Origin: Streptomyces sp. NBC_01497
GTDB taxonomy: Bacteria > Actinomycetota > Actinomycetes > Streptomycetales > Streptomycetaceae
Direction of reading: 5' to 3'
Assembly (NCBI RefSeq): GCF_036250695.1
Contig: NZ_CP109427.1
Coordinates: forward strand, 868,001 to 932,000
DNA: 64,000 bases
Made by a program: the position numbers and the translations under genes. Positions 9,368 through 34,825 of the stretch are shown here, piece by piece. The stretch's first letter is position 1. Each line of letters starts with the position of its first letter. The notes under the pieces are model-generated. The model did not search any database, was not told where the DNA came from, and worked only from the letters and a program-made list of their open reading frames with translations.

Positions 9368-9480
9368 GGTCAGGTCGTCCGGCCAGGTCGGTTCGTTCGG
9401 TCCGGCCAGGTCGGGTCAGGTCGGTCGGTTCGAGCAGGTCTCGTCAGGTCGGTCAGTTCGGATCAGGTCAGGTCAGTTCG
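9368..9480. repeat. CAGGTC-rich degenerate direct repeats
   Basis: CAGGTC recurs about eight times at uneven 6-20 base spacing, often as CAGGTCGGTC or CAGGTCAGGTCAG, ending right at the stop of the glycosidase gene. The rest of the intergenic stretch 9158-9467 holds only the MMPL terminator. The spacing is irregular and there are no spacers, so it is not CRISPR; it may be a slippage-derived repeat. Confidence 0.6.
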
Positions 9481-11399
9481 AGCACCCGCACACCGAAGGG
9501 GTCCAGCGTCACCTCGGTCACCGGCGCGCCGTCGAGGCCGCACAGGACGCCCCCGGCACGTGGCCGTACCGTCAGTTCGGTCGCGCCCTGACTCACCAGC
9601 CACACGAAGCGGCGCCCGTCCTCGTGGCGGACCGTGTCGGCGCAGACGTGCGGAGTGTCCACCGTCACCGGCCGGGCCGCGCCCGCGACCTGTGCGAGCG
9701 CCGCGTAGAGCCGGTGTGTCTGCTCGGGGTTGATCCGTGCGCTGCGGGCCGCCATGTGCTCCAGCGGGTACGTCGCAAGGACGGTACGGCCCCGGCCCAG
9801 TGTGTGCTCCAGCAGTGCGGGCCTGCCGTGCGCGTCGGTGGCGATCACACGCGCGCCCCGCGGGACCACGGGGAGGTACGCGCGGCTGTCCTCATTGCCC
9901 GCCACCGGGAAGCGCAGGGTCTCCCCCGCCGTGATCGACCCGAAGTCCACGAGGAAGGTGAGGGCGAGTTCGTCGTCCTCGATCGGCTCCGCGACGCCGT
10001 AGGTGAGTTGCTGCTCGACACCGAACAGGGCGTCCAGGCCGTCGAACCAGGGGCCTCGCGTGCCGGGGTGCTCGCCGGAGCAGAACGACAGGTAGACGGT
10101 GGCGCCCTCGCGGGCCCTGCGCTCCAGTTCACGCCGGGTGCGCGTGGTGAACTGCCGAGTGGACGGCAGCAGATAGAGCTTCGCGTCGCCGGGCAGGCCG
10201 TCGGCCTCGCGGCTGAGCGCGACCGGCAGGTCGGCCGCGCGGGCCGCCACGTACGCCTGGTGCAGCGAGGTGAAGATCAACGGCCGGTCGGCGGGGCGGC
10301 TGTAGGGGTAGCCGCGTTCGAGGAAGGCGGGGACGACGAGCGCCGTGTCGGCGTCGGAGCGGTGGCACCTGGCGAAGTCGGTGGCCGCCAGCACCCCGGC
10401 GAAGTCGTCCAGTTCCCGCAGCGGCGGCTTCGGCGCGCCGGAGCTGTCCGTGATGCCGAAGTGCATCTCGAAGGGGTGGTGGTCGTACGGGGAGCGGTCC
10501 CACAGCGCGTCGTAGTCGGTGTTGTTCCAGGCGATCCAGCCGGTGGCCCCGCCCAGCAGCGAGTTGTGCAGCGTCTGCCGGTAGTACACGGCCGCCGCCT
10601 CGGCCGAGACGGTGTCGGTGGACAGCCCGAACTCCTCCAGTACCACCGGCTGCCCCGTCACCGAGGCCAGTTCGCACTCGAAGGCGGCGCGGTAGTGCTG
10701 GCGGACCCGGTCGGTGTCGGAGCGGTAGACGTGCGGGCCCACGAAGTCCACGTACTCGGCGGTGTCGCGCAGCGAGAAACCGTTGTCCCGGCCGGTCACC
10801 TCGATCCCCCACGCGCCGTCGCCGAGCGAGAGGGGCTGGGTGCCGCCCGCGGCGCGCACGGCATGGCACATGGCCTGCGCCCAGGCCGTGACGACGTCGG
10901 AGGAGGGCGGGTCGACCTGGTGGATCCGGCCGTAGCCCGGCATCTCGTTGGTGATGAGCCAGCCGGTGACGGCGGGATGGTCCTTGAACCTGCGGGTCAT
11001 CTGGTGCACGAACCAGGCCTGGCGGCCCACCATCCACACGTCCTCGTACAGGTCCCGCCCGCCGCGCCACGCCGGGTCCCAGTTCTCCCCCGACATGTGT
11101 CCGACGATGAACGTGGGCACGGTCGCCATGCCGCGTTCGCTGTGCGCGTCCAGGAAGTCGCGGAAGCGGTCGCACAGCTCCTCGTCGATCCGGCCCGGTT
11201 CGGGATGGAAGTCGGGCCAGTAGAAGAAGGACCTGGTCATCGTGAGGCCGTGGTCGCCGAGGACGGCCAGTTCCTCACGGACCACCGCCGGATCGTAGTC
11301 GCGCCACATCAGCGGTCCGCCGGTACGGGACCAGTAGTTGGCGCCGAGCCAGGGCAGGACGGCGGCATCGTGGGTGAGCTGGGCGGTGTGGCGTCGCAT
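9468..11399 (-). CDS. GH5/GH42-like glycoside hydrolase
   Basis: 643 aa, no signal peptide, so cytoplasmic. An N-terminal TIM barrel (to about residue 350) has the acid/base in LITNEMPGYG (N151, E152) and the nucleophile in VVLEEFG (E255/E256), the clan GH-A arrangement. A middle domain (about 380-560) with LPSTRQFTTRTRRELERRA looks like the class I glutamine amidotransferase fold found in GH42 enzymes. A small beta domain ends the protein. It is the last gene of the ABC/LacI unit, so it probably cleaves the imported oligosaccharide, perhaps a beta-mannoside or beta-galactoside. GAGGAAAG precedes the ATG at 11399. Confidence 0.75.
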   Translation of the reverse strand: MRRHTAQLTHDAAVLPWLGANYWSRTGGPLMWRDYDPAVVREELAVLGDHGLTMTRSFFYWPDFHPEPGRIDEELCDRFRDFLDAHSERGMATVPTFIVGHMSGENWDPAWRGGRDLYEDVWMVGRQAWFVHQMTRRFKDHPAVTGWLITNEMPGYGRIHQVDPPSSDVVTAWAQAMCHAVRAAGGTQPLSLGDGAWGIEVTGRDNGFSLRDTAEYVDFVGPHVYRSDTDRVRQHYRAAFECELASVTGQPVVLEEFGLSTDTVSAEAAAVYYRQTLHNSLLGGATGWIAWNNTDYDALWDRSPYDHHPFEMHFGITDSSGAPKPPLRELDDFAGVLAATDFARCHRSDADTALVVPAFLERGYPYSRPADRPLIFTSLHQAYVAARAADLPVALSREADGLPGDAKLYLLPSTRQFTTRTRRELERRAREGATVYLSFCSGEHPGTRGPWFDGLDALFGVEQQLTYGVAEPIEDDELALTFLVDFGSITAGETLRFPVAGNEDSRAYLPVVPRGARVIATDAHGRPALLEHTLGRGRTVLATYPLEHMAARSARINPEQTHRLYAALAQVAGAARPVTVDTPHVCADTVRHEDGRRFVWLVSQGATELTVRPRAGGVLCGLDGAPVTEVTLDPFGVRVLELT

Positions 11400-11494
11400 A
11401 CGGGTGTCTGTTCTTTCCTCGGTGTGTTCGGTGTGCTCACCGCCGTCCGCAGCCGTGGCGGCGCGGTCCGGGGCCGGTGGTGCTTCGGTGCGGG

Positions 11495-12610
11495 TCAGGG
11501 GTGCGGTGCCCGGCAGGTGGACTCCCGTACCACGAGCCGGGGCCTGCCGTCCGGCGGCGCGGTGTCGACGTCCTCGCCGCACTGCGCGAGCAGCGCCCGT
11601 GCGGCGGCGGCGCCGACGCGCTGCACCTGCTGGTCGACGGTGGTCAGTCGGGGGTGCATCCAGCGGCCGAGCGGCAGATCGTCGTAGCCGACGACCGAGA
11701 GGTCCTCCGGTACACGCAGCCCGGCGCGGAGCGTGGCGCCGATGCCGCAGACGGCCATCGAGTCGTTGGCGTACACGACGGCCGTGGGCCGCTCCGCCCT
11801 GGCAAGCAGTTGCTCCGTCGCGGCGAGGGCCGCCGCCTCGGAGAAGTCCGTCTCCAGTACGGCCGCCGGCTCGGTGCGGGCGGTCGCCAGCGCGTCCCGG
11901 AACGCGGCCAGCCGCAGCCGGGTGTGCAGCAGTTCGCCGGGTCCGGTCACGTACGCGATCCGGCGGTGCCCGAGCAGCAGCAGATGCTCGACCGCCTCAC
12001 GGACGCCCGCCCCCTGCTGCGGCAGCCCCACACTCGGCACCTGGAGACCGCTGTCGGGGGCACCCAACAGCACGGCGGGGAGCGCCAGTTCCCTGAGCAG
12101 CGGCGGCCTCGGGTCGTCGGCGCGGGCGTCGGTGAGGACCGCGCCGTCCACCCGGCCCTCGGCGGCGAGGCGCTCGTACAGGGCACGCTCCTGCTCGGGG
12201 CCCGCCACCAGGTGCAGCAGCAGGCCGTAGCCGCGCGGCGAGAGTTCGCCCTCCAGGCCCGTGATGAGTTCGCCGAAGTGCGGGTCCGCACCGAGCACGT
12301 CGGTGGGCCTGCGCACGACGAGTGCGAACGTCCGGGTACGGGCGCTGCGCAGCGCGGACGCCGACGCGTTCGGCGACCAGCCGAGCGATGCGGCGGCGGC
12401 CAGCACCCGGCGCCTGGTGCGCTCCGAGAGACGGCCGGTGCCGTTGACGGCCTGGGAGACGGCCGCCGTGGAGACGCCCGCCGCCGCGGCGACCGCCTTG
12501 ATGGTGGGCCGCCCGGCGGACTCCTCGGGACCCGCGGGCCCGGGGTCCTCGCGTCCCGTACCGGGCTCCTGCCGCGAACCCGAACCCGGGGATGCCTCGC
12601 TGCCGCTCAC
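11495..12610 (-). CDS. LacI family regulator of sugar uptake operon
   Basis: 371 aa. After a Pro/Gly-rich N-terminal tail of about 35 residues comes the LacI HTH, TIKAVAAAAGVSTAAVSQAV, with the hinge helix NASASALRSART. A periplasmic-binding-like effector domain follows, with VVGYDDLPLGRWMHPRLTTV near the end. The GTG start at 12610 overlaps the TGA of the upstream permease by 4 bases (GTGA), so translation is coupled. It probably binds the operator at 15955-15972 and releases it when the imported sugar is present. Confidence 0.85.
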   Translation of the reverse strand: MSGSEASPGSGSRQEPGTGREDPGPAGPEESAGRPTIKAVAAAAGVSTAAVSQAVNGTGRLSERTRRRVLAAAASLGWSPNASASALRSARTRTFALVVRRPTDVLGADPHFGELITGLEGELSPRGYGLLLHLVAGPEQERALYERLAAEGRVDGAVLTDARADDPRPPLLRELALPAVLLGAPDSGLQVPSVGLPQQGAGVREAVEHLLLLGHRRIAYVTGPGELLHTRLRLAAFRDALATARTEPAAVLETDFSEAAALAATEQLLARAERPTAVVYANDSMAVCGIGATLRAGLRVPEDLSVVGYDDLPLGRWMHPRLTTVDQQVQRVGAAAARALLAQCGEDVDTAPPDGRPRLVVRESTCRAPHP

Positions 12611-13434
12611 ATCTTCACCGCCCCACTGACCAGTGCCTGCTGCATGCGCTTCTGGAGAACCGTATAGACGATCCAGACGGGGATGAGGGTGAGGACCGTG
12701 CCCGCCGTCAGCACGCCGTAGTCGGTCCCGGTCAGGGCGCGCAGGGTCGGCAGCGCCACCTGGACGGTCCGCTGAGAGGGGTCGGGGCCGATGATGACGA
12801 GCGAGTAGAGGTACTCGTTCCAGAAGGACAGGAAGTTCAGCAGCACCACCGTCGCGATGCCCGGCAGGCACATCGGCGCGTAGACGCGGCACAACAGCGT
12901 GAAGGTCGACGCGCCGTCGAGGCGCGCCGCCTCCTCCATCTCGCGCGGGACGGTGCGCATGAACTGCACGAGGATCACCACCGCGAGCGGCATCGCCGTC
13001 GCGGGCAGGAAGATCATCATGAACAGCCGCGTGTGGAACAGCCCGGTCGCGGCGGCCAGCAGGAAGGTCGGGAACAAGGCCGCGAACGTCGGTACGAGGA
13101 AGCCGAGGGAGAACACCCGCTCGACGGCCCTGCCCGTCCGGCCCTCGGAACGCGCCACGGCGAAGGCGGCCGGCACGGCCAGGACCACGGTGACGATCAG
13201 CGCGACGGCCGTCACCAGCACCGACGAGACGATCGCGCCGCCGAGGTCCGCGGTGTCGAAGGCATGACCGAAGTTGTGGAAGGACAGCGACGTGGGCAGC
13301 GAGAACGGCGTCGCGAAGATCTGGTCGTTGCTCTTGAACGCCGACACCAGCAGGTAGTAGAGCGGCACGAGGAGCAGCAGCGCGTACAGCCAGGCCAGGA
13401 CGTGCGCGGGCAGCCAGGACTTTCCGGTTTTCAC
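12607..13434 (-). CDS. Sugar ABC transporter permease, MalG type
   Basis: 275 aa with six predicted membrane helices. The cytoplasmic EAA loop, EMEEAARLDGASTFTLLCRV, makes contact with the ATPase. The C-terminus QKRMQQALVSGAVKM is the classic end of MalG-type (CUT1) permeases. No ATPase gene is in the unit; in Streptomyces a shared MsiK ATPase usually powers such importers. It pairs with the permease at 13450. Confidence 0.9.
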   Translation of the reverse strand: MKTGKSWLPAHVLAWLYALLLLVPLYYLLVSAFKSNDQIFATPFSLPTSLSFHNFGHAFDTADLGGAIVSSVLVTAVALIVTVVLAVPAAFAVARSEGRTGRAVERVFSLGFLVPTFAALFPTFLLAAATGLFHTRLFMMIFLPATAMPLAVVILVQFMRTVPREMEEAARLDGASTFTLLCRVYAPMCLPGIATVVLLNFLSFWNEYLYSLVIIGPDPSQRTVQVALPTLRALTGTDYGVLTAGTVLTLIPVWIVYTVLQKRMQQALVSGAVKM

Positions 13435-13449
13435 GGGTGCCTCCTTCGG

Positions 13450-14382
13450 TCAGTAGGTCTGGCGGAACACACGGCGGATGACGAGCAGGCCGGCGAGCCC
13501 GACGAGGAAGAGGACCACACCGACGGTCTGGCTGTAGCCGAGGTCGGCCGCGATGAACGCCTTCTGGTAGACGAGGAAGGAGAGCGTCGTCGAGGACGAT
13601 CCCGGGCCGCCCTGGGTGAGCAGCAGCACGTTCTGGGCGGAGTCGAAGAGGGTCCACAGGAACTGCAGCATCGTCACCACCCCGACGTAGTCGCGGATGA
13701 CCGGGAAGTGGATGCGCCACATGGTGCGCCAGTGGCCGGCGCCGTCGAGCTGCGCTGCCTCGCCGATCTCGTCGGGGACGCTGCCGAGACGGGCGGCGAA
13801 CAGCACGGCGGTGAAGCCGATGCCGCTCCACACGTCCAGCAGGACGACGCACAGCAGCGCGGTCGACGGGGAGGCCAGCCAGGCGTCCTGGAGCGATCCG
13901 AGACCCATCGCGTCGAGCGCCCCGTTGAGCAGTCCGTCCGGCGAGAGCACGGCGTAGAACACCATCGCCTTGGCCGAGGTCGAGATCAGGCCGGGTATGA
14001 ACAGCAGATAGCGCAGCACCCGGTGCCCCGGCGGGCGCTGGACGACGTAGTACCCCAGCATGTACGCGCACACGACCATCACCGGCAGGGCGATGGCGAG
14101 CTGCACGGCGGTGTTGCGTACCGCGTCCCAGAAGACCGGATCGCCCAGCACCGTACGCACGTTGGCCAGTCCGGCGAAGGACACCGGCTGCAACATGCCG
14201 GGCCAGTGCAGCGCCGCGACGACGAACATCGCGACCAGCGGGCCGAGCATGAACACGGCGTACCAGACGAGGGCGGGCACGGCGAGGATGGTGCCGCCCT
14301 GGCGGCGCCCGCCCCGGGGCCTCGCGGGCGGAGGGCGGCGCGCGGGCCGGGCCGCAGGGGGGGTCGAGGACAGCATCGTCAT
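13450..14382 (-). CDS. Sugar ABC transporter permease, MalF type
   Basis: 310 aa. An N-terminal cytoplasmic tail rich in Pro/Arg is followed by six helices. The EAA loop is EIGEAAQLDGAGHWRTMWRI. TQGGPGSSSTTLSFLVYQKAF near the end is characteristic of CUT1 permeases. It lies 15 bases upstream of the second permease and about 200 bases downstream of the binding-protein gene. Confidence 0.9.
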   Translation of the reverse strand: MTMLSSTPPAARPARRPPPARPRGGRRQGGTILAVPALVWYAVFMLGPLVAMFVVAALHWPGMLQPVSFAGLANVRTVLGDPVFWDAVRNTAVQLAIALPVMVVCAYMLGYYVVQRPPGHRVLRYLLFIPGLISTSAKAMVFYAVLSPDGLLNGALDAMGLGSLQDAWLASPSTALLCVVLLDVWSGIGFTAVLFAARLGSVPDEIGEAAQLDGAGHWRTMWRIHFPVIRDYVGVVTMLQFLWTLFDSAQNVLLLTQGGPGSSSTTLSFLVYQKAFIAADLGYSQTVGVVLFLVGLAGLLVIRRVFRQTY

Positions 14383-14584
14383 GAGGGGACTCCCCTGAAG
14401 GCGTGGAGGGGCGGCGGGACGGACGGTGGGTCCGCTACGGCCACGGTGTGCGGGTACCGGGGCGCGGAAACGATGGCGGGTGGCGGGTGTGCGGGGCTGC
14501 CGTGGTCAACGACACCGGTGCTGCGGCAGGTTGGCGTTCGCGCGCGGTGAGACGCGGCGCTCCCCCGCCGACAGCGGCCCGTGC

Positions 14585-15877
14585 TCAGGACGAGCGGTAG
14601 GCGGCTTCCAGCGCCGCCCGCACCCGGGCTGCGCTGGTGCCCGGTGTGAAAGCCGTGCTGGTCGCGGTGATCAGCGGCTGGTTGGCGGTCGGCGGCACAT
14701 GGACGTCGGGCAGCACGACCTGGCTGACCTTGTCCCCGAGCCGCGTGGCGTCCGCGACCAGCGGGAACCGCGTCGCGAGGGTCGTGGATCTGACCGCCAT
14801 GTCCCGCCCCGCCTCGGTGATGAACCGGGAGACGGTCTCGGGCCGGTACATGAAGCGCAGGAACTTCTCCACGGCGTCGATCTTCTTCGTGCCGTTGGGG
14901 CTGATCCAGAACGCGATCAGGGTGTACGTGCGCAGCGCGGTGGGGTGCGGCTGCACGGCGCCGGCCGTGAGCGGGAACCCGCCCACTGCGGTGTGTTTCA
15001 CCACGTCCGCCGGCACCTGCGCGAGCGCGGAGGACTCCGCCGACTCCACGGCGGCCTTCTCGGTGTTGTACTGGGTGAACATCGAGTCGGACGTGAGTCC
15101 CTGGGCCTTGTCGGAGAACACACCGGCGTCGCGCAGGGTGACGAAGTACTCGATGCCCTGCCGGGCCGCGCGCGTGCTGAAGTCGCCTGTCGTGTAGGCG
15201 TGGACGGCCTCGTCCGCCGTCAGGAAGGTCTGGATGATCTGCGCCAGCAGCTTCTGCCCGGTCCAGTCCTCGCCCCCGATCGTGACGGGCATGATGCCCT
15301 TGCCGCGCAACTTGTGGGCGGCGCTGATGAGTTCGTCACCGGTGGTGGGGACGGCACCCACCCCCGCCCGTTCCAGCAGCCGGGTGTTGTACGCGACCGG
15401 CCAGTTGGTCCCGAAGTAGGGGAACGCCCGGACGCGGCCCCTGGCGTCGGTCCACTCGCGCAGGGCCTCGGGCAGGACACGCTCGTGCAGGCCCCAGTCG
15501 ACGAGGTACGGCTTCACGTCCACGGTCGCGCCGACGTCCGTCCAGGCCAGCGTCTTGTCGTAGAGGTTGACCATCACGACGTCGGCCTCTTTGCGCGCCA
15601 GCCGCGAGGTCTCGTAGACCTGGGCCAGGTCGTCGCCGTTGACGAGGTTCTTGACCGTGAGGCCGGGGTTCTCCCGGTGGAAGTCGGCCACGGCCGACAG
15701 ATACGTCCCGGATCCGGTGGCGGTGGTCCCGAGCTGGGTGTGGACGACGAGGGTGTCAGGGTCCGCGCCGTCACCGGCGAGGGCGGCACCGCAGCCGGTC
15801 AGGGACGGCGCGGCCGCCGCGGCGGCGAGGCCGGAGCCCGCGGCGAGCAATCGCCGCCGGCTCATCGTTGGGCGCAC
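14585..15877 (-). CDS. Sugar ABC transporter substrate-binding lipoprotein
   Basis: 430 aa. N-terminus SRRRLLAAGSGLAAAAAAP then the lipobox LTGC: a lipoprotein, with the Arg run suggesting Tat export. The mature part is a CUT1 solute-binding fold, e.g. FPYFGTNWPVAYNTRLLERAG and KFLRFMYRPETVSRF. The GTG at 15877 has GGAGGCG 8 bases upstream; the internal ATG at 15865 is an alternative. It is the first gene of the minus-strand sugar unit and lies about 80 bases below the LacI operator. Confidence 0.88.
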   Translation of the reverse strand: MRPTMSRRRLLAAGSGLAAAAAAPSLTGCGAALAGDGADPDTLVVHTQLGTTATGSGTYLSAVADFHRENPGLTVKNLVNGDDLAQVYETSRLARKEADVVMVNLYDKTLAWTDVGATVDVKPYLVDWGLHERVLPEALREWTDARGRVRAFPYFGTNWPVAYNTRLLERAGVGAVPTTGDELISAAHKLRGKGIMPVTIGGEDWTGQKLLAQIIQTFLTADEAVHAYTTGDFSTRAARQGIEYFVTLRDAGVFSDKAQGLTSDSMFTQYNTEKAAVESAESSALAQVPADVVKHTAVGGFPLTAGAVQPHPTALRTYTLIAFWISPNGTKKIDAVEKFLRFMYRPETVSRFITEAGRDMAVRSTTLATRFPLVADATRLGDKVSQVVLPDVHVPPTANQPLITATSTAFTPGTSAARVRAALEAAYRSS

Positions 15878-15954
15878 GGCAGAACGCCTCCAGCCTGAGG
15901 AGAGGGGACGGAAGGGGGGAGCGGAACAGGGGGGAGCGGGGGTGGAGCGCCTCG

Positions 15955-15972
15955 TGGTTAATCGATATACCA
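15955..15972. promoter_or_regulatory. LacI-type operator upstream of sugar operon
   Basis: TGGTTAATCGATATACCA is an 18-bp near-palindrome with the central CG typical of LacI-family operators; 7 of 9 pairs match. It is an AT-rich island in GC-rich DNA, upstream of the binding-protein start. The rest of 15878-16236 shows only CGGCACC-type short repeats (about 16145-16180) and no gene. Confidence 0.75.
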
Positions 15973-16236
15973 GCGAGGTGGCTGCACCATACGGCGCCCT
16001 TTCGCGGCGGGTCAACCCCCTGTGATCACGGCATCGCACCCGCGCCGGCGGAAGGGGAGGCACCGCGTGCCGGGCCCCTCGCCGCCGGCCGCGCCGTGCC
16101 TGCTCGGGATGGTCCGGGGAACATCGCGGCACCCCTCGCACAGCCACCGGCACCGGCACCCGGCACCCGGCACCCGGGCCATCCGTCCCCGGGCAACAGT
16201 GGTTCCCGCGCAGCGTGCGGAGCCACCCGCCCGCGA

Positions 16237-25209: not shown

Positions 25210-27980
25210 GCTTCGAGCACCCCGACGCCTGGCACGCGCCGGCCACGTACTGGTTCTGGCAGCGCGTACCGTCGAAGCGGGAGATCCGGGAGCAGTTGGA
25301 CACCCTGGCCGGGGCGGGTTTCGGCTCGTTCCAGATCCAGACCCGGTTGTCCTTCCCCCGCGAGGAGTACCTGGGCGACGCGTATCTCGCCGCGGTGCGC
25401 CTGGCCGCCGACGAAGCCGCCGCCCGGGGCCTGATGATGGGGCTGTACGACGAGTACAACTGGTTGTCGGGGCATGCCGGCGGCCGCACGGTGGCGGGCC
25501 GGGACGAGCTGCGCGAGCGGCACATGTTCTTCTCCACCTCCGCCTCCACCTCCGCCTCCGCCGCGCCGGCGGACGATGGGGCCGCCGAGTGCGCCGTCGA
25601 CGGCATCAGGGCCAAGGACGTCGACCACCTTCTCGGCCCCGGGAAGAACTGGGTCTTCGAGGACGCGGAGATCCGTTGGGACCAGTGGGAGATCGTCGCC
25701 GCGCTGGCGCATCCGGAGGGCTCGGTCACCGACGCGGACTCCGTCGTCGACGTCACCGCGCACGCGTACTTCGCGGACACCGGCGGATCGGGCTGCCGGG
25801 TGCGCGTCCCGCTCGACGTCGTCGGTCCCGGCAGGGCGGTGACGGTCTTCGTCGCGGCGCGGTGCGCCTCCAGCAGAATGATCAACTACCTGCTCCCCGA
25901 GGCCGCGGAGCGCTTCCTCGACGTGGGTTACGAGCCCTACGCCGCCGCCCTCGGGCACCACCTCGGCAGCACGGTCAGCTACGTGTTCTTCGATCAGCCC
26001 CACGCCTGCTTCTACGGCTGGCGGCAGCAGGACGAGCAGCCCGCCCACCTCACCTCCTCGCTGATGTACGCACCGGCCGTCGTCCCGCTGGACCGCAGGG
26101 AACTCCTGGCGCTGGCACGGGACATCGGGCCGGCGACGGCCGCCTGGCGCTGCGCGTTCTTCGAGCGGTACGCGGCCCTCGGCATCGACGCGTTCTTCGG
26201 CACCCTGTCGCGCTGGTGCGGAAGCCACGGTGTCGCCCTGTCGGGGCACGAGGTGCTCGGCTTTGTCTCCTCGTGGAACCCGACCGACACGATCATCACC
26301 GAGGACACCCGGACGAACTTCGGCTCCGACTACTTCGGCCTGGACCGCCACCGTGACCTCACCGCCGTCGACGCGCGCAACGAACACCCCCAGATCAGCG
26401 CCAAGTTCGGGGATTCGATGGCCCGGTCCAACGGCCGGTCCGGGTGCCTGGTCGAGCAGTACTTCGCGCGCACCGAGACGGGATCGCACTTCGCGGAGGG
26501 GCGCTGGGAGCTCACGCTCGGCGAGCTGAGAAACCAGACGGTACGACACCATCTGCTCGGCGCACGCCAGTTGCTGACCCACGCGTTCTGGCTGACGGAC
26601 GGCCGGGACACGGCGCCGGAGGAGACCCGCCCCGGCACCGGGGACGGCGCTACGGCCGTGGACGCGGGCCCGCCCGCGGTGTTCACCGATCCGGCCTTCG
26701 ACTTCCCTCCTGGCGTGAACTTCGAGCCATGGTTCAGCCACCACCTCGCGTTCGCGGAGGAGTCCGGCCGGCTGTCCGAGTTCCTGGACGGCGCGGATCC
26801 GTTGAACGAGATCGCGCTGCTCTATCCACTGCGTACCGCCTGGGCCGGTGGACCCGCCCACCCCTACGGCGCCCATTTCGCGTTCTGGGCCGAGCACCTG
26901 GCCCGCGCGGGCTACGACTTCAGCGTCGTCGACGAGCGGGACGTCAGGGACGGACGGCTGCGGGAGCGGTGCGCGACGCTCATCCTGCCGGGCGTCTCGG
27001 TGGTCGCTGACATCGCGACCGTCGAAGCGCTGGCGAAGTTCACCGCGGACGGCGGGACCGTGCTGGCCTCGGGCCCGCTGCCGACGGCGGCTCAGAACGG
27101 CGGAAGTGGTATCCAGGAGAGCGAGCGGGAACTGGCCGGGCGGGTCGCGGACCTCGTCGGCGGCCCCCGGGCGGCGCACTGGCCGGATCTCCCGTCCGGC
27201 GAGGACGTGGACGCCCGGCTCACCGCCGCCGTGACAGGTCACCCGCAGATCGAGTCGGACGCCGACGTGTGGTCGGTGCGGCGGCGCGACGACGACGGGT
27301 TCCGGATCGCGCTGTTCAACGACGGCGCCGGGCGCCGCGTGGTGAGCGTACGGCCGGCGTCACTGCCGGCCGGGGTCACGCGCTGGGAGGCCGCGACGGG
27401 GCTCAGGAGCGCGCCGCGCGAGGTGACGGAGTCGCTGACGCTCACCCTGGAGGCGGGCGAACTCGTCTGCCTGCACCTCACGGAGGGCACCGGCGAGGTC
27501 CGCGGGACGCCCGCCACCCTGGTACTCGACCAGGGGTGGACCCTGCAGGTGGCAGGTGTGCCGCGCCAACCGGTCGACGTGTACCGGGGCTGGGAACAGC
27601 AGGGCCTGCCCGCCTTCGCGGGGACGGGCGAGTACCGCACGGTCTTCGACCTGCCGCTCGCCGGCCCGCGATCCGGCGCGGGGTCCGGTGGCGCGGAAGC
27701 GGGCGGCGAGGAGGCCGGTGGCGGGAACCCCGCCGAGGAGTGGCCGCAGTGGGAGCTGCACCTGCCGGGTGTCGAGGCGTCCGCCGAGGCGGAGCTCAAC
27801 GGCGTCGTGGTCGGGCGGTGGGGCTGGGGGCCGTTCCGCTGTGTCTTCCCGGCGGGGGTTCTGCGCCGCCACGGCAACGAGCTCACCGTGAAGGTGGCGT
27901 CGACGGCGGCGAACCGGTACGCCCCGGCGGGCCGACCGAGCGGCCTCGTACGGCCGCCGCGGCTGCGCCCGAAGCTCTGA
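25206..27980 (+). CDS. GH106-like glycoside hydrolase, large
   Basis: 924 aa, no signal peptide. N-terminal barrel with TYWFWQRVPSKREIREQLD, GAGFGSFQIQTRL and LYDEYNWLSGHAGGRTV. This pattern is seen in GH106-type alpha-L-rhamnosidases and related uncharacterised hydrolases. A flavodoxin/amidotransferase-like segment (LILPGVSVVADIATVEALAK, about residue 595) and a C-terminal GH2-type sugar-binding beta domain (AELNGVVVGRWGWGPFRC) follow. The low-complexity stretch of Ser/Ala near residue 115 is odd. Coupled by ATGA overlap to the NCS1 permease, so it should act inside the cell on what that permease brings in. The substrate is unknown. Confidence 0.7.
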   Translation: MSFEHPDAWHAPATYWFWQRVPSKREIREQLDTLAGAGFGSFQIQTRLSFPREEYLGDAYLAAVRLAADEAAARGLMMGLYDEYNWLSGHAGGRTVAGRDELRERHMFFSTSASTSASAAPADDGAAECAVDGIRAKDVDHLLGPGKNWVFEDAEIRWDQWEIVAALAHPEGSVTDADSVVDVTAHAYFADTGGSGCRVRVPLDVVGPGRAVTVFVAARCASSRMINYLLPEAAERFLDVGYEPYAAALGHHLGSTVSYVFFDQPHACFYGWRQQDEQPAHLTSSLMYAPAVVPLDRRELLALARDIGPATAAWRCAFFERYAALGIDAFFGTLSRWCGSHGVALSGHEVLGFVSSWNPTDTIITEDTRTNFGSDYFGLDRHRDLTAVDARNEHPQISAKFGDSMARSNGRSGCLVEQYFARTETGSHFAEGRWELTLGELRNQTVRHHLLGARQLLTHAFWLTDGRDTAPEETRPGTGDGATAVDAGPPAVFTDPAFDFPPGVNFEPWFSHHLAFAEESGRLSEFLDGADPLNEIALLYPLRTAWAGGPAHPYGAHFAFWAEHLARAGYDFSVVDERDVRDGRLRERCATLILPGVSVVADIATVEALAKFTADGGTVLASGPLPTAAQNGGSGIQESERELAGRVADLVGGPRAAHWPDLPSGEDVDARLTAAVTGHPQIESDADVWSVRRRDDDGFRIALFNDGAGRRVVSVRPASLPAGVTRWEAATGLRSAPREVTESLTLTLEAGELVCLHLTEGTGEVRGTPATLVLDQGWTLQVAGVPRQPVDVYRGWEQQGLPAFAGTGEYRTVFDLPLAGPRSGAGSGGAEAGGEEAGGGNPAEEWPQWELHLPGVEASAEAELNGVVVGRWGWGPFRCVFPAGVLRRHGNELTVKVASTAANRYAPAGRPSGLVRPPRLRPKL

Positions 27981-28156: not shown

Positions 28157-29971
28157 TCAGCCCATCGGACGACCGGGGACGCCGGGCCGGCGCTCCCAGG
28201 GGCGCGGCCCCTCGGGGCGCCGGTAGTCCACACCCATCGCGTCCAGCCGCTCGTAGTGCCCGGCCATGCGCGCCTCGAAGTCAGCCAGGTCGCGTTCCGC
28301 GGGGGGCGGGAGGTGCGACCAGGTCACCTCGGCCAGCGCGGCGAGCCGGGGGAAGACCTGGTAGTCGAGACGCTGCGGGCTGTCCATCGCCTCGGTCCAG
28401 GCGTTGCCCTGGGCGCCGGCCACCCGGCGCGCCTCCTCCTCGCTCAGTTCGGCGGGTACCGGTTCGAAGCGGTAGACGTCCGCGAGGGTGCGCACGTAGC
28501 CGATCGGCACCGGCTCCCCCTCGGCGGCCTGCCGGTGATCCAGGTAGAGGTGCTCCTCGGGGCACATCACCGCCGCGTGGCCCGCCCGTGCGGCCGCGAC
28601 GCCACCCGCGAAACCACGCCACGACAGGACCACGGTGTCCTCGGGCAGGTCACGGGCGCCGGGCGCGGAGTGTTGCGCGCCCACGTCGGCCCGTACGGCC
28701 CCGGACACCGCCCCGAAGCCCTCCCCCGCTTCGGCCCACGACGAGGCGAGCGCCCCCGCGCCGGAACGCGGGGCACGGCGGTCCATGATCTCGTCCCACC
28801 CCGCCGGTGTGCGCCCGCGCTCGGTGAGCCACTCGGCGAAGTGCCGTACCAGCCAGTGCTGGAGGGAGATCTCGTCGTCCAGTCCGAGTTCCTCGATGCG
28901 CAGTTGGACGGCCGCCGACTCCCGCCACTGCCCCATGGGGCACTCGTCGGCGCCGATGTGCACGTACGGGCCGGGGAAGATCTCCAGGATCTCTTCGAGG
29001 ACGTGCTCGTAGAAGCGGATCGTCTCCTCGGACGGGTTCAGCACGTTGGGGCTGAGTCCCCACTCCGTCCACACCCGCAGGTCACCGGTATCCACCACGT
29101 CGGTGACGCCCAGTTCGGGGTGGGCCGCGACGGCGGCCTGGGAGTGGGCGGGCACATCGATCTCCGGCACGACGGTGATGTGCCGAACCGCCGCGTAGGC
29201 CACGATCTCCCGCAGGTCGTCCTGGGTGTAGTAACCGCCGTGCGGCCGCTCGTCCCAGAGAGTCGAGCCCTGGAGTCCGAGCCTGCTGCGCTCGCGCCAC
29301 CCGCCGGTTCCGGTCAGCCGGGGGTAGCGCTTGATCTCGACGCGCCAGCCCTGGTCGTCCGTCAGGTGCAGTTGCAGGACGTTGAGTTTGTGGGCCGCCA
29401 TCAGGTCGATGTAGCGCAGTACGCCGTCCTTGGGCAGGAAGTGACGTGCCACGTCGAGCATCAGCCCCCGCCACCGGAACCGGGGGGCGTCCTCGATGAC
29501 GCCCCCCGGCAGGGCCCACGCGCGGTCCCCCGCTCGGGGCAGCGGCGCGCGCCGGCAGGCCTCGGGGCCGAGCAGTTGACGCAGCGTCTGGGCACCCCAG
29601 AACAGCCCGGCCGGCCCGCCGCCCAGGAGGGTCACCGCGTCGGCCCCGATGTCGAGCCGGTAACTCTCGGGGCCCCGCTCCGCTCCCGCCTGTTCGTCGA
29701 GGCCGAGCCGGATCGTACGGCTCGCCGGCACGCGGTCCGTCCCGCCGGGTCCGCCGGAGTCCGGTGGGTCCAGCGGCAGACCGGTGGCGGCCCCCACCGT
29801 GGCGCGCAGCCAGCGCGCCACGTCCTCGGCGCCGGGTCCCGCGGCGAGTCGCGTCCGCGCGTCCAGGAGGAACTCTTCGCCTGTGGGGGCCGCGGCCTGA
29901 CGCAGCGGCAGAGGAAGCAGGGCGCGGCTGCCCTCGGGGCCGGGCCGCGGTGATGTGTTCGTGGCGTTCAT
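28157..29971 (-). CDS. Beta-N-acetylhexosaminidase, GH20
   Basis: 604 aa. The N-terminal GH20b domain is followed by the catalytic barrel from about residue 165 (APRFRWRGLMLDVARHF). The catalytic Asp-Glu pair is in YVHIGADECPMGQW. LNVLQLHLTDDQGWRVEIK is also diagnostic. It removes terminal GlcNAc or GalNAc, for instance from chitooligosaccharides or peptidoglycan fragments. No clear signal peptide, so cytoplasmic action is likely. ATG at 29971 after GGGAGAG. It is divergent from the aminotransferase gene; the 366-bp region 29972-30337 shows no obvious regulatory repeat. Confidence 0.9.
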   Translation of the reverse strand: MNATNTSPRPGPEGSRALLPLPLRQAAAPTGEEFLLDARTRLAAGPGAEDVARWLRATVGAATGLPLDPPDSGGPGGTDRVPASRTIRLGLDEQAGAERGPESYRLDIGADAVTLLGGGPAGLFWGAQTLRQLLGPEACRRAPLPRAGDRAWALPGGVIEDAPRFRWRGLMLDVARHFLPKDGVLRYIDLMAAHKLNVLQLHLTDDQGWRVEIKRYPRLTGTGGWRERSRLGLQGSTLWDERPHGGYYTQDDLREIVAYAAVRHITVVPEIDVPAHSQAAVAAHPELGVTDVVDTGDLRVWTEWGLSPNVLNPSEETIRFYEHVLEEILEIFPGPYVHIGADECPMGQWRESAAVQLRIEELGLDDEISLQHWLVRHFAEWLTERGRTPAGWDEIMDRRAPRSGAGALASSWAEAGEGFGAVSGAVRADVGAQHSAPGARDLPEDTVVLSWRGFAGGVAAARAGHAAVMCPEEHLYLDHRQAAEGEPVPIGYVRTLADVYRFEPVPAELSEEEARRVAGAQGNAWTEAMDSPQRLDYQVFPRLAALAEVTWSHLPPPAERDLADFEARMAGHYERLDAMGVDYRRPEGPRPWERRPGVPGRPMG

Positions 29972-30337: not shown

Positions 30338-31507
30338 ATGCCGCAGCATTCCTCCCCCAGCAATGACAGTGACGTCGTCGTACCTTTCCGGGACCTCCGA
30401 CGGCTGCACAGAATAGGTGGGGATTCATCACGGGCTGCCCTGCTCACAGCTCTGGATTCGGCTGATTTCGCCCGTCCCAACCGGCTCATTCGGGAATTCG
30501 AGGAACGCTACGCCGAATTCTGCGGAGCCCGGCATGTCATCGCGACCTCCAGTGGTTCCTCGGCGCTCCTCCTGGCCTACCTGACCCTCGGGATCGGGCC
30601 CGGCGACAACATCGTCACCGTCCCCAACACGTTCGTCGCCACGGCGGAGGCGGCCCTGCTGCTCGGCGCCGAGGTCCGGCTGGCCGACATCGACCCGGCC
30701 ACCCACACGGTCGACGAGGCCGCAGCCCTCGACCTGCTGACGCCCCGTACGAAGGCAGTGGTACCGCTGCACACGTACGGGCGGCTCGCCGCCGTCGACG
30801 GCCTCGCCGACGCGTGCCGCGAGCGTGGCATCGCCCTCGTCGAGGAGGCGTGCCACGCCCACGGCGCCGTGCGCGGGGGCCGCAGCGCCGGGTCGTTCGG
30901 CGACTGCGCGGTCTACAGCTTCGGTCCGACCAAGACCTTCGCGGGTATGGGCGAAGGCGGCGCCGTGGTGACGAACGACGACGAACTCGCCGCCCGATTG
31001 CGGGCCATGAACAGCCACGGTCTCGAAGGCTCGCTCCACACCTCGCTCGGCCTCAGCTTCCGCATGCACCCGATGGAGGCCGCCTACCTGACGGCCCGCC
31101 TCGAACTGCTGCCGGCGATGCTCAAGGAGCGGCGGGAGGTCGCCGCGCTCTACAACGAGGCGTTCTCGCCCTTCGGGGTGGTGCACAACACCGATGTCCC
31201 CGACCTGGCCGAGCACGGCCTGTACGTGTACGTGATCGACGTGCCCGACCGGGACGCCTTCTGCCGGCACCTGACGTCCGCCGGGGTCGGCTGGGACATC
31301 CACTACCGCGCGGCACTGCACCAGCAGCCCGCACACCGTGAGCGCTTCCGTTCCAGCGTGCTGCCCTCCTGCGACACGCGGATGCGGGAGATCGTGTCGC
31401 TGCCGATGATCGCCGGGCTGACGGACCGGGAGGTCGCCCGGGTGATCGACGTCGTCACCGACGCGCTCGGCGAGGTCACGACGGCACCCGCGGCAGCCGG
31501 GGCGTGA
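30338..31507 (+). CDS. DegT/DnrJ/EryC1/StrS family aminotransferase
   Basis: 389 aa. The PLP-binding Lys is in VYSFGPTKTFAGMGEGG, about residue 206. ATSSGSSALLLAYLTLGIGPGD and PNTFVATAEAALLLGAEV are the conserved N-terminal motifs. These enzymes aminate keto-sugars or cyclitols, and a few make AHBA or other amino acids. GAAGGAG precedes the ATG. The 3' end overlaps the end of the convergent enolase gene by 32 bases. With no nucleotide-sugar genes next to it, the substrate is likelier a small keto compound made by the facing cupin, kinase and enolase genes. Confidence 0.85.
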   Translation: MPQHSSPSNDSDVVVPFRDLRRLHRIGGDSSRAALLTALDSADFARPNRLIREFEERYAEFCGARHVIATSSGSSALLLAYLTLGIGPGDNIVTVPNTFVATAEAALLLGAEVRLADIDPATHTVDEAAALDLLTPRTKAVVPLHTYGRLAAVDGLADACRERGIALVEEACHAHGAVRGGRSAGSFGDCAVYSFGPTKTFAGMGEGGAVVTNDDELAARLRAMNSHGLEGSLHTSLGLSFRMHPMEAAYLTARLELLPAMLKERREVAALYNEAFSPFGVVHNTDVPDLAEHGLYVYVIDVPDRDAFCRHLTSAGVGWDIHYRAALHQQPAHRERFRSSVLPSCDTRMREIVSLPMIAGLTDREVARVIDVVTDALGEVTTAPAAAGA

Positions 31508-32756
31508 ACGCGCGGGGCCCCGGATAGACCGCCCGGGGCCCCAGCGCCTCCGCGATCCTCAGCAACTGGTTGTACTTGGCGACCCGTTCGCCCCGCACGG
31601 GTGCGCCGCTCTTGAGCTGCCCGCAGCCGGACGCGACCGCCAGGTCGGCGACGGCGGTGTCGTCCGTCTCACCGGTGCGGTGGCTCACCACGCAGCGGTA
31701 CCCCGACGCGTGGGCGAGCCCGATCGCGTCGAGGGTCTCGGTGACGGTGCCGGCCTGGCCCGGTTTGGCGAGGAAGGCGTTGGCCGCCCCGCGTTCGACA
31801 CCGTCGCGCAGCCGCTCGGCCCCCGTCAGGAACAGCGCGTCGCCGACGAGCTGCACCCGGTGGCCGATCAGCCGGGTCAACTCGCTCCAGCCGGCCCAGT
31901 CCTCGCCCCCGAGGGGGTCTTCCAGGGAGACCAGCGGGTAGGAGCCGAGCCAGTCGCCGTAGACGTAGGCCATGCCCTCCGCGTCGCGCACGCGCCCCGC
32001 GAAGTCGTAGCGGCCGTCGGGGCGCGGACTGATCCCCACGTCGAGGGCGAGGCCGACGTCCCGCCCCGGTTCCAGGCCCGCGGCCTCGATCGCGGCGCTC
32101 ACCCAGTCCAGGGCCACGCGGTCGTCCGGGACCGGCGGGGCATAGCTGCCCTCGTCGGTGGTGGGAGCGGCCACACCCGCCTTCGCCAGCACCGCCCCCA
32201 GGGCGTGCCAGATCTCCGCGCCCCAGCGGACGGCCTCCCCGAGGTCCGGGGCACCCAGGGGAACGATCATGAACTCCTGCACGGCGGCCGCCCCGTTCCC
32301 CCGGGCGCCGCTGAGCACGTTCATCAGCGGTACGGGCAGGACGTGCGCGTCCGGGCCGCCGAGGTGGGCCGCGAGCGGCAGCCCGCGCGCGTCGGCCGCC
32401 GCACGGGCCACCGCGAGCGAGACGCCGAGCAGGACGTTCCCGCCGAGCCGCGACTTGAGCGGTGTGCCGTCCAGAGCGATCAGCAACGAGTCCAGCTCGC
32501 GCTGGTCCAGGGCGGAGCGCCCGCTCAGCGCGGGTTCGACCTCCTGGGCCACCGAGGCGATCGCGGTACGCAGCCCCTGACCCGCGTACCGCGTGCCGCC
32601 GTCACGGATCTCGGCCGCGAACGCCCCGGTGGTCACCGCGCCGGCGACGGAGGCCCGGCCCGTCGCGCCGCGCGCCAGCCGGACGTCCACCTCCAGGGCG
32701 GGCACGCCCCGCCCGTCGAGGATCTCCCGGGCCCGTACCGTACGAATCACGCTCAT
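31476..32756 (-). CDS. Atypical enolase paralogue
   Basis: 426 aa. Clear enolase fold: AREILDGRGVPALEVDV, AVQEFMIVPLGAP, LALDVGIS, VSLEDPLGGEDWAGW, SHRTGETDD and GQLKSGAPVRGERVAKYNQ. Metal ligands Asp (LALDV), Glu (LEDP) and Asp (LVGD), and both catalytic Lys (LAKPGQ, GQLKSG), are kept. However, the mobile loop SGASTG is changed to AGAVTTG, the catalytic His of the GGxHAD loop is lost (SGARGNG), and GDEGGFAP is TDEGSYAP. So it is not the housekeeping glycolytic enzyme; it may dehydrate or otherwise process another phosphorylated acid. Last gene of the cupin-kinase-enolase operon. Confidence 0.85.
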   Translation of the reverse strand: MSVIRTVRAREILDGRGVPALEVDVRLARGATGRASVAGAVTTGAFAAEIRDGGTRYAGQGLRTAIASVAQEVEPALSGRSALDQRELDSLLIALDGTPLKSRLGGNVLLGVSLAVARAAADARGLPLAAHLGGPDAHVLPVPLMNVLSGARGNGAAAVQEFMIVPLGAPDLGEAVRWGAEIWHALGAVLAKAGVAAPTTDEGSYAPPVPDDRVALDWVSAAIEAAGLEPGRDVGLALDVGISPRPDGRYDFAGRVRDAEGMAYVYGDWLGSYPLVSLEDPLGGEDWAGWSELTRLIGHRVQLVGDALFLTGAERLRDGVERGAANAFLAKPGQAGTVTETLDAIGLAHASGYRCVVSHRTGETDDTAVADLAVASGCGQLKSGAPVRGERVAKYNQLLRIAEALGPRAVYPGPRAFTPRLPRVPS

Positions 32757-32840
32757 CGTTCGTTCCTTCCGTGCTCGTGCGCCCCCGCTCCGCGCGGGGC
32801 CGAGGGTCGTCCACGCCCGGTCCGTCGCCGGTCGGCGGGC

Positions 32841-34067
32841 TCATGCCGTCGGGACACCGTCCGGCGCTCCGATCAACCCGAGGTGGGCGACCGGATCGGG
32901 CTCCCGCCCCCGGTCGAGCCCGTCGAGCAGGTCCGTCATCAGCACCGCGCCGTTGAGGAAGAGTCCGAGCGAGCGGTTGTACCGCACGGCCGGCGCCTCG
33001 GCACGGTCCGAGAGCCGGCACGCGGACTCCGCGAGGACGTGCGACGCGTGGGCGAACAGCAGGCGGTGCACCCACGGCCCGGGCGGAAAGCCGGCGTCGG
33101 CGAGCATCGTCCAGACCTCCGGCAGCAGCTCCAGAAAACCCGCCGTGGCGGCCCGCAGCGGGCTCGGCACCGCGCCGGCGACGGTGTACGAGCCGGGGCC
33201 CGCCGAGTCGAGCGCGAAGCCCGCGCGCATGGTGTCGTCGAACAGCGTGACGGTGAACAGCATCTTGGCGAGGTCGTAGACGACGTCCCACGGCGTGAGC
33301 ACGCCCCTCGGGTCGAGGAGCCGGAAACCGGGGCCACCGCCGGGCGGCGGGACCAGGATGTTGCGCAGGTTCAGGTCACCGTGCACCGGCTGCGAGAGCG
33401 GACTGCCCGCGAACAACGCGGTGACGTTCGCCGATTCGGCCCTGCGGACCAGCTCGCGCAGACCGTACGCCCGGCGTCCGCCGACCGTGACGTGCGGGTC
33501 TTCGAGGAGGTCGGCGGGCAAGTGGCGCTCCAGGATCCACCGACGGCGCGTCAGGCGCTCCAGGTACATCGACTGCCACAGCCGCTCCGGCCCGGGCGCC
33601 ACGACACGGCCGTACCCGTCCGCGACGAGCGCCCGCAGCACCGGGCCCAGCAGCTCCGGCACGCTCCCGCCCCCGCGCAGGGCCTCGACCAGCGTGGGCC
33701 AGGGGTAGTAGGTCAGCACATAGGCCGACCACGCGCGGCGGTGCGCCGAGTGCAGGATCGCCGCGTACGACCCCGCGACGCCGGGAGCGGTCCGCTCCAG
33801 CAGCTCCTGCTGCCGCTGCTTGGCACGGAAGGTCTTGAGCCCGTGCCCGTCGACGCGTTCCGAGGCCGGCTGGAGGCATTTCAGCACCACCTGTTCGCCG
33901 TCGGCGGTCGTGGCCAGGGCGCACGCGGAATCCGAACCGCCGTCCTTGAGGACGCGCACCAATGTGAGACCGAAGTGCGCCGCGGCCTCCTCCAGCGGGC
34001 CGGCCGACGGCGCCTGCGGGCCGCCGCTGTGCGCGGCGGCCCCGGCCTCGTGGGGCGCAGCCGTCAC
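32841..34067 (-). CDS. APH-like small-molecule kinase
   Basis: 408 aa. Catalytic loop QPVHGDLNLRNILVPP with Asp and Asn in place. The usual DFG/DxE is replaced by LLDPRGVLTPWDVVYDLAKM, which still supplies an Asp. An ATP-binding N-lobe has VRVLKDGGSDSACALATT and the Lys in QVVLKCLQPA. Resembles choline/aminoglycoside kinases more than known resistance enzymes. The GTG at 34067 overlaps the cupin stop by 4 bases. As the middle gene between a cupin and an enolase, it probably phosphorylates the metabolite that the enolase then uses. Confidence 0.75.
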   Translation of the reverse strand: MTAAPHEAGAAAHSGGPQAPSAGPLEEAAAHFGLTLVRVLKDGGSDSACALATTADGEQVVLKCLQPASERVDGHGLKTFRAKQRQQELLERTAPGVAGSYAAILHSAHRRAWSAYVLTYYPWPTLVEALRGGGSVPELLGPVLRALVADGYGRVVAPGPERLWQSMYLERLTRRRWILERHLPADLLEDPHVTVGGRRAYGLRELVRRAESANVTALFAGSPLSQPVHGDLNLRNILVPPPGGGPGFRLLDPRGVLTPWDVVYDLAKMLFTVTLFDDTMRAGFALDSAGPGSYTVAGAVPSPLRAATAGFLELLPEVWTMLADAGFPPGPWVHRLLFAHASHVLAESACRLSDRAEAPAVRYNRSLGLFLNGAVLMTDLLDGLDRGREPDPVAHLGLIGAPDGVPTA

Positions 34068-34825
34068 GGGCGGACGGCGCGCAGCCGGCCGGCGAAGGCG
34101 ACGAGTTCCTCGTCCGTGCACTCGGCGAGCACCCCGCGCAGCCCGCCGCGCTCCCGCACCTCCTCGTCCAGCTCGACGGGCAGGGGGCGCTGTTCGGATA
34201 TGACCCGGCCGGGGGTGTGGTCACCGGGGAGCCAGGTGGCGCGGGGCTGCCCGTCCTGCATGGTCACGACGCAGGGCAGCGGCACCCTGCTGTGGTACTT
34301 CTCGGAGACGTCGGTGCCGCCCCCGCCCTCCCGTGCCGTATAGACGTTGAACACGTCCGCGCGCTTCCAGGGCGATCCCGTCAGGTGGAACCAGCCGGGC
34401 GGGATGAGCGCGAGATCGCCCGGCCCGTACTCGGCCAGCCACACCCGCTCACCACCCGGCGGGGCGATCAGCATGACCACACGGCCGGACTCGACCTCGA
34501 AGACCTCCAGTTGGTCCGTGGAGTTCCAGTGGCCGATCGAGCGGACCGGCTCGCCGTCCGCGAGCACCCCGCCCTCGTACTCCACGAAGTCGCCCCGCCA
34601 GTGGAACGCCTCCGCGTCCGCCGGCGCGAGCGGCCTCGCCGGGATCCCGTCGCGGTAGGCCGTGTAAAGGAGCGGGCCCGGCTCCGCGGGGTCCGCGCTC
34701 AGCGCCTCCCGGTCGGCCACCACGGGGCCGACGCCATCCGGGCGCGCGCGGAGCAGGTCGGCGAGGTGGCGGGGCTCCTTCGCGGCGGGACGGTCGGTCT
34801 TCTCCTGCGTGACGAGCGGGTGCAT
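34064..34825 (-). CDS. Cupin-domain protein
   Basis: 253 aa. The two cupin motifs are GHWNSTDQLEVFEVESG (about residues 97-113) and GPGDLALIPPGWFHLTG (about 134-150), supplying His and Glu metal ligands. The arrangement resembles cupin-type phosphosugar isomerases, but the N- and C-terminal extensions are not familiar. It could be an isomerase, epimerase or dioxygenase of a small acid or sugar. First gene of the operon with the kinase and enolase; an 897-bp region without a clear gene lies upstream. Confidence 0.65.
   Translation of the reverse strand: MHPLVTQEKTDRPAAKEPRHLADLLRARPDGVGPVVADREALSADPAEPGPLLYTAYRDGIPARPLAPADAEAFHWRGDFVEYEGGVLADGEPVRSIGHWNSTDQLEVFEVESGRVVMLIAPPGGERVWLAEYGPGDLALIPPGWFHLTGSPWKRADVFNVYTAREGGGGTDVSEKYHSRVPLPCVVTMQDGQPRATWLPGDHTPGRVISEQRPLPVELDEEVRERGGLRGVLAECTDEELVAFAGRLRAVRP

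Follow-up and report, generated by a model that had tools for sequence, protein, structure and literature searches.

This analysis concerns four adjoining genes, for a cupin, a kinase, an enolase-like protein and a DegT-family aminotransferase, in a 64,000-nucleotide stretch of the chromosome of Streptomyces sp. NBC_01497 (the window; positions 868001-932000 of contig C1, NZ_CP109427.1). The genome (G000) has 9.08 Mb, and its nearest relatives are Streptomyces. The four genes and two of their neighbours are as follows.

30338..31507, plus strand: DegT/DnrJ/StrS aminotransferase dependent on pyridoxal phosphate (PLP), convergent to the enolase-like gene
31476..32756, minus strand: enolase-like protein that retains the Mg ligands and acid/base residues but differs in the phosphate-side loops
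32841..34067, minus strand: APH-fold small-molecule kinase with HGDLNLRN and DPRG motifs
34064..34825, minus strand: cupin, a relative of archaeal cupin-type phosphoglucose isomerase, with ligand positions H99, N101, E107 and H147
28157..29971, minus strand: GH20 beta-N-acetylhexosaminidase (604 amino acids from the ATG at 29971) with an HIGADE motif, divergent from the DegT gene and likely accessory
25359..27980, plus strand: large protein (about 870 amino acids) adjoining the GH20 gene, of doubtful membership in the cassette

The four open reading frames listed in the first-pass annotation all lie where it had placed them, DegT on the plus strand and the other three on the minus strand, and the convergence that it described is real, with the coding ends of the DegT and enolase-like genes overlapping by 32 bp (31476-31507). 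Its family calls for these two proteins agree with matches to PF01041 and to PF03952 plus PF00113, respectively. The kinase gene is present as well, but its reading frame (32841-34121) had been taken from an upstream GTG. The most likely start is the GTG at 34067, which is supported by Streptomyces sp. 8L and gives a product of 408 amino acids. Kinase start and cupin stop share four bases (GTGA), and an 84-bp gap separates the kinase from the downstream enolase-like gene.

Recurrence of the four genes

A contig scan with the kinase alignment, from which the closest relatives of the window genome may be missing, returned 16 loci. Three of these have cupin and enolase genes beside the kinase, namely Streptomyces sp. 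8L (L009), S. diastatochromogenes ATCC 12309 (L010) and S. griseoviridis (L011, with genome G133 taken as the same region). In Streptomyces sp. 8L the set of four is complete and arranged as in the window, with convergence and overlap, and its proteins are 76% (kinase), 86% (enolase), 91% (DegT) and 78% (cupin) identical to those of the window. The S. diastatochromogenes locus L010 ends inside the enolase gene; the remainder of the unit is on a second contig (L069), which carries the enolase, a convergent DegT (70%), a GNAT N-acetyltransferase and a PIG-L deacetylase. An unbroken six-gene island of about 6 kb is found on a linear plasmid of S. mirabilis (NZ_CP108478.1, 1,027,571 bases), in the order PIG-L, GNAT, DegT, enolase, kinase, cupin and with the same convergent overlap (identities to the window: DegT 71%, enolase 59%, kinase 57%, cupin 48%). 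It is flanked by an integrase-like gene about 4 kb away on one side and by transposases about 2 kb away on the other. Together, L010 and L069 match this megaplasmid (L077) at 99.9% identity across 10 kb, which suggests a common plasmid or a near-identical strain, and we count the two species as one lineage. In S. griseoviridis the row consists of cupin, kinase, enolase, GNAT (63% identical to the S. mirabilis-type GNAT) and GH20. Two further contigs may hold the cupin and kinase of the cassette clade (P0004/P0025, from Streptomyces sp. NPDC048737, and P0007/P0027, on a contig of 33.9 kb).

The first-pass annotation had raised the question of whether the four genes are scattered in related genomes; they stay together, save for DegT, no orthologue of which was found in S. 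griseoviridis. Judged from sequence and gene order, the four have been conserved as a unit, and the recurrence of the order and of the convergent overlap in a divergent lineage places the layout beyond chance. The set was originally drawn as four genes and these four stand, but the relatives add an N-acetyltransferase together with a deacetylase or GH20, and one of the copies sits on a plasmid between transposase genes.

The cassette is rare. At E<=0.001 the kinase query matched 5 of 199 genomes of the genus (its own, G133 at 56% and three at 36-38%), 3 of 391 in an overlapping draw from the order (its own, G133 and one marginal match of 20 bits) and 4 of 100 relatives (its own plus three of the distant kind). 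The cupin query matched 2 of 392 Streptomyces genomes, again its own and G133. DegT matches occurred in 120 of 121 genomes, never above 40% identity outside its own place among the matches listed. A literature search found no description of this gene set, a result that does not prove that none exists.

The enolase-like protein and its relatives

Enolase is among the most conserved enzymes known, and to our knowledge few non-glycolytic uses of it have been described. The window protein has both the N- and the C-terminal enolase domain with full-length homology, scores above the NCBIfam eno (TIGR01060) cut-off (454 versus 300 bits) and is 53-58% identical to the three canonical rows compared. 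Our canonical set comprised 118 enolases (nearest matches only, and so a biased sample), in which 170 positions show an invariance of 99% or more. Of these, 132 are shared by the window protein, which deviates at the other 38; the S. griseoviridis cassette enolase keeps 115, another paralogue in G000 keeps 149 and the normal enolase of G000 keeps 168.

The changes are unevenly placed with respect to the active site. Metal ligands, the acid/base pair and other active-site residues are retained in the window, 8L, S. griseoviridis and S. mirabilis-type proteins. By motif mapping we take them to be E168, E211, D246, E295, D320, K345, R374 and K396 of the yeast enzyme, with D246, E295 and D320 presumably the Mg ligands and E211 and K345 the acid/base pair. 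None of the 118 canonical enolases departs from the PSGAST loop or the active-site His (presumably His159 in yeast). Every covered cassette enolase, by contrast, is altered at the Pro, the first Ser and the Ala of PSGAST and at the His of NGGAHAD, and has lost the Glu that follows the loop. Further changes in every covered member affect the second Asp of GDD and the Asn two places past the catalytic Lys, and the Ser of SHRS is replaced by Thr. The four cassette enolases form a single clade with a support of 100/100, in a tree that has long branches and one row covering the C-terminal part only, where long-branch joining is possible. All three cassette genomes checked (G000, G133 and G674) additionally encode a normal enolase, in which PSGAST, the histidine, GDD and SHRS are preserved.

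The substrate pocket of the cassette enolases is thus predicted to be rebuilt around an intact site for proton abstraction and metal binding. A non-glycolytic role is likely, because the clade is separate and apparently catalytically competent yet altered. The earlier view of an off-type enolase with a non-glycolytic job is supported to this extent, through the clade of its own, the phosphate-side changes and the conserved catalytic core, with the job itself graded as likely. What makes the clade of interest is this combination across all its members, an intact core and a rebuilt phosphate pocket, together with steady partners and one occurrence on a plasmid island, so that a candidate new enolase reaction becomes directly testable with six small genes.

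Two other readings of the enolase-like protein can be weighed here. It could be a spare, ordinary 2-phosphoglycerate enolase with unrelated neighbours, as its score above the eno cut-off and the preserved acid/base and metal residues would allow. We regard this as very improbable, given the linkage conserved in divergent lineages, the clade of its own and the altered phosphate-side loops. Alternatively, following the parallel drawn in the first-pass annotation, it could be an enzyme of the carboxyphosphonoenolpyruvate (CPEP) synthase type in a phosphonate or phosphinate branch. CPEP synthase is an enolase paralogue in phosphinothricin biosynthesis, so that enolase paralogues have a precedent in such chemistry. 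Inspection by eye of the gene calls surrounding the cassette, part of them run against Pfam, turned up no phosphonate gene in the window, in 8L, in S. griseoviridis or on the S. mirabilis plasmid. We regard this reading, too, as very improbable.

Two enolase sequences were set aside as cassette relatives. A third enolase in G000 (C1:352395-353246) is 48% identical to that of the window and lies on a long branch; it keeps the active-site histidine, and its neighbours are unrelated by eye. P0032, an apparent close match of 525 amino acids on a metagenome contig, contains an inner segment twice, which suggests a chimeric sequence or an artefact of assembly.

Cupin, kinase, aminotransferase and neighbouring genes

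The cupin falls just under the Pfam threshold for cupin-type phosphoglucose isomerase (PF06560, 19.4 bits with a cut-off of 20.7). Its profile matches solved enzymes of that type (PDB 1j3p and 1x82) across the cupin domain and the N-terminal arm, and the fold of its structure model (mean pLDDT, the predicted local distance difference score, 66) matches the same family. The first-pass annotation had left open whether the cupin isomerises or oxidises; membership in this fold family, predicted from sequence and model, favours the isomerase. Four positions, which we take to be metal ligands and which read His, His, Glu, His in phosphoglucose isomerase, read H, N, E, H in 10 of 10 cupin rows, so that one metal His is replaced by Asn. 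The positions were counted on the profile alignment, and the rows include one identical and one 87% identical pair. The 8L cupin, 78% identical to that of the window, also has HWN, and the cupin of Streptomyces sp. DW26H14 (P0024) is 96% identical to the 8L protein.

Cupin and enolase-like protein both fall into fold families that include glycolytic enzymes, which could reflect self-resistance, in which an inhibitor-insensitive spare kinase, glucose-6-phosphate isomerase and enolase shield the producer of a glycolysis inhibitor. Natural enolase inhibitors do exist, SF2312 being one example given in PMC13302981. Normal glycolytic turnover is disfavoured on both sides, however: the cassette enolases have lost the active-site His and loop residues that all 118 canonical enolases possess, and one metal His is missing from all 10 cupin rows. 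DegT and GNAT would also be left unexplained, and we consider self-resistance highly unlikely.

The kinase on its own is sub-threshold in Pfam (TCAD9 at 22.2 with a threshold of 40; APH at 19 with a threshold of 23.2), and an APH match at E up to 1 is seen in 16 of 21 aligned kinase relatives. Its sequence has no match in the PDB. The structure model is confident (mean pLDDT 88) and has an APH fold with HGDxxxxN and DPRG motifs. In the structure search, methylthioribose, fructosamine-3-, glucosamine and N-acetylhexosamine kinases score between 19.3 and 17.6, a spread of about 2 Z units; kinases that act on choline or modify drugs fall in the same range, which makes for a broad tie, and APH-fold families absent from this list may be candidates as well. 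A small sugar or amine is the substrate class suggested by the model.

A quick kinase tree, with support from the Shimodaira-Hasegawa-like approximate likelihood ratio test (SH-aLRT) only, places the cassette kinases in one clade, apart from two clades of other locus types. It holds further rows of no known context; the 15 other loci were sorted into types by their neighbours. Type A (L013, L014, L017, L018, L020, L022 and L026) is a recurring cluster in diverse actinomycetes, read over 10 kb around a kinase of the same wide family. A GatZ/KbaZ-like gene is present in all seven, ThuA, a HAD phosphatase and a beta-propeller protein resembling aldos-2-ulose dehydratase in six of seven each, and MarR, MFS and luciferase-like genes in five of seven each. 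All eight type B loci (L012, L015, L016, L019, L021, L023, L024 and L025) have a class III aminotransferase (GabT1-like) and a gene resembling inositol monophosphatase (IMPase; YktC1-like). A Zn-dehydrogenase (GutB1-like) accompanies them in 7/8 and GH35 in 4/8, and PfkB, HAD and epimerase genes also occur. L023 comes from a Methylocystaceae metagenome-assembled genome, outside the actinobacteria. No cassette cupin or enolase was found in the fetched flanks of either type.

PMC8466323 reports ‘disordered’ Streptomyces gabT1-yktC1-gutB1 azasugar clusters with APH-domain proteins among the interleaved genes. Membership of the cassette kinase in such a cluster was considered and rejected. Beside the cassette, GabT1- and YktC1-like genes gave no match; the window has a Zn-dehydrogenase match of 30% identity at a distance of 11 kb. 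A search of four cassette genomes for the IMPase, run with no positive control, gave no match, and in these genomes class III aminotransferases reached 35-37% identity at best.

The aminotransferase matches PF01041 with an E-value of 7e-93 and has the PLP lysine motif GPTK in the window, 8L and S. mirabilis; no NCBIfam equivalog scored above its cut-off. The close relatives that were found (91% and 70-71%) are all within cassettes. GNAT and PIG-L, identified by their Pfam matches, were not found by tblastn in the window or 8L.

The window encodes a complete GH20 hexosaminidase. In the window, in 8L and in S. griseoviridis the HIG(A/G)DE motif is intact and no signal peptide is evident by eye, and the protein from the S. 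griseoviridis operon is 75% identical to that of the window. GH20 does not form a subfamily exclusive to cassettes, as unbroken full-length relatives (61-65%) occur in G090 and G108 in surroundings that look housekeeping-like by eye. Because the subfamily occurs in such settings in two genomes, GH20 was probably recruited to the cassette. The large protein at 25359-27980, glycosidase-like by eye, has no Pfam, NCBIfam or PDB sequence match; it stands beside the cassette only in 8L (77% identical) and has no match in S. griseoviridis or on the S. mirabilis plasmid. An NCS1-type permease near the cassette is 88.8% identical between the window and 8L, and the window also has a LacI gene. A block of GHx, permease and LacI was rejected as a core of the cassette, since GHx and permease are shared only with 8L, where LacI gave a match of just 57 residues.

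Elsewhere in the window, 9468-16159 is a likely sugar-uptake locus with a GH5-type hydrolase (PF00150), two ABC permeases and a solute-binding protein, and 4195-5196 encodes a radical SAM protein with DUF3463.

Possible pathway and comparison with known systems

Our preferred reading, to which we assign a probability of about 45%, is that of a compact, horizontally moving pathway cassette for a specialised amino-sugar-like metabolite. The kinase would phosphorylate a sugar-like hydroxy compound, and the phosphoglucose-isomerase-like cupin would convert the aldose form of the phosphorylated compound into its ketose (or enediol) form and back. The enolase-like protein, with its phosphate side opened up, could abstract an alpha-proton adjacent to a metal-bound carboxylate, dehydrating or isomerising a sugar-acid phosphate larger than 2-phosphoglycerate. 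DegT would turn a ketone into an amine, GNAT would cap this amine by N-acetylation, and the PIG-L deacetylase or GH20 hexosaminidase might trim or otherwise handle the N-acetylated product. We leave the order of the steps free, and we infer substrates, order and product alike.

The same proteins could also run in the catabolic direction. GH20 and/or PIG-L would release an amino sugar from an N-acetylated glycoside, a reversed DegT would deaminate it, and the kinase, cupin and enolase-like dehydratase would feed the product into central metabolism. The GH20 motif intact in three copies fits this, as does the resemblance of the cupin and enolase-like enzymes to glycolysis, and the chromosomal copies adjoin sugar-utilisation genes as a catabolic locus would (GH20, the large enzyme and the NCS1-type permease, with LacI in the window). 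We nevertheless favour biosynthesis over catabolism, because the plasmid island between mobile elements adds only GNAT and PIG-L, with no transporter, regulator or glycosidase called among genes in part run against Pfam, because GNAT suits biosynthesis or self-protection better and is a poor fit to catabolism, and because distant relatives of the kinase occur in azasugar-type loci. The lack of a large-enzyme match in S. griseoviridis and on the plasmid, and the very rare distribution, also speak against catabolism, which we hold to be somewhat unlikely.

Besides the sugar-utilisation neighbours, several points weigh against the biosynthetic pathway. The best DegT match in the S. griseoviridis genome is 36% identical. 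A member of a different DegT clade (35%) is encoded there 2.8 kb upstream of the cupin gene, and DegT may be optional in this species or have this protein in its place. Neither the window nor 8L showed a GNAT gene next to the cassette, PIG-L was found only in the S. mirabilis lineage, and no exporter or regulator is common to the cassette copies. The proposed horizontal movement is read from one plasmid copy and a patchy distribution, and the sugar-acid substrate of the enolase-like protein is proposed on chemical grounds.

A more specific version of the biosynthetic proposal, in our view unlikely, is that the product is an N-acetylhexosamine mimic directed at hexosaminidases and made by a previously undescribed route. 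Kinase and cupin would prepare a phosphorylated sugar, the enolase-like protein would yield an enol or dehydro sugar-acid intermediate, and DegT and GNAT would put in the acetamido group. The co-operonic GH20 or PIG-L would be the matching immunity or processing enzyme, as GH35 may be in four of the eight azasugar-type relatives. If this were true, the cassette would serve as a search handle for such compounds, which standard cluster-finding rules would probably overlook.

The cassette aminotransferase shares PF01041 and the PLP lysine with the DegT/DnrJ/EryC1/StrS sugar aminotransferases, and is at most 40% identical to other Streptomyces DegT/StrS members among the matches listed. Nucleotide-sugar partner genes were not seen in the S. 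mirabilis island, though they may be encoded elsewhere in the genome. With APH-fold small-molecule kinases the cassette kinase shares fold and motifs at 9-16% identity in structural alignment, a level at which no substrate is assignable, and it forms its own clade. Type B loci, with distant kinase relatives (30-38%), look like the azasugar gabT1-yktC1-gutB1 clusters of PMC8466323, where we assume the family identity of the reported APH proteins. The cupin is only about 20% identical to archaeal cupin-type phosphoglucose isomerase and has Asn for one of four metal His; unlike the archaeal enzyme, it is actinobacterial and carries an extra C-terminal helical tail. Finally, the enolase-like protein shares with enolase (phosphopyruvate hydratase, EC 4.2.1.11) full-length homology, the metal ligands, the Lys/Glu acid-base pair and the active-site Arg and Lys, but differs in the loss of the active-site His and of PSGAST-loop residues, in forming a clade of its own and in having fixed operon partners.

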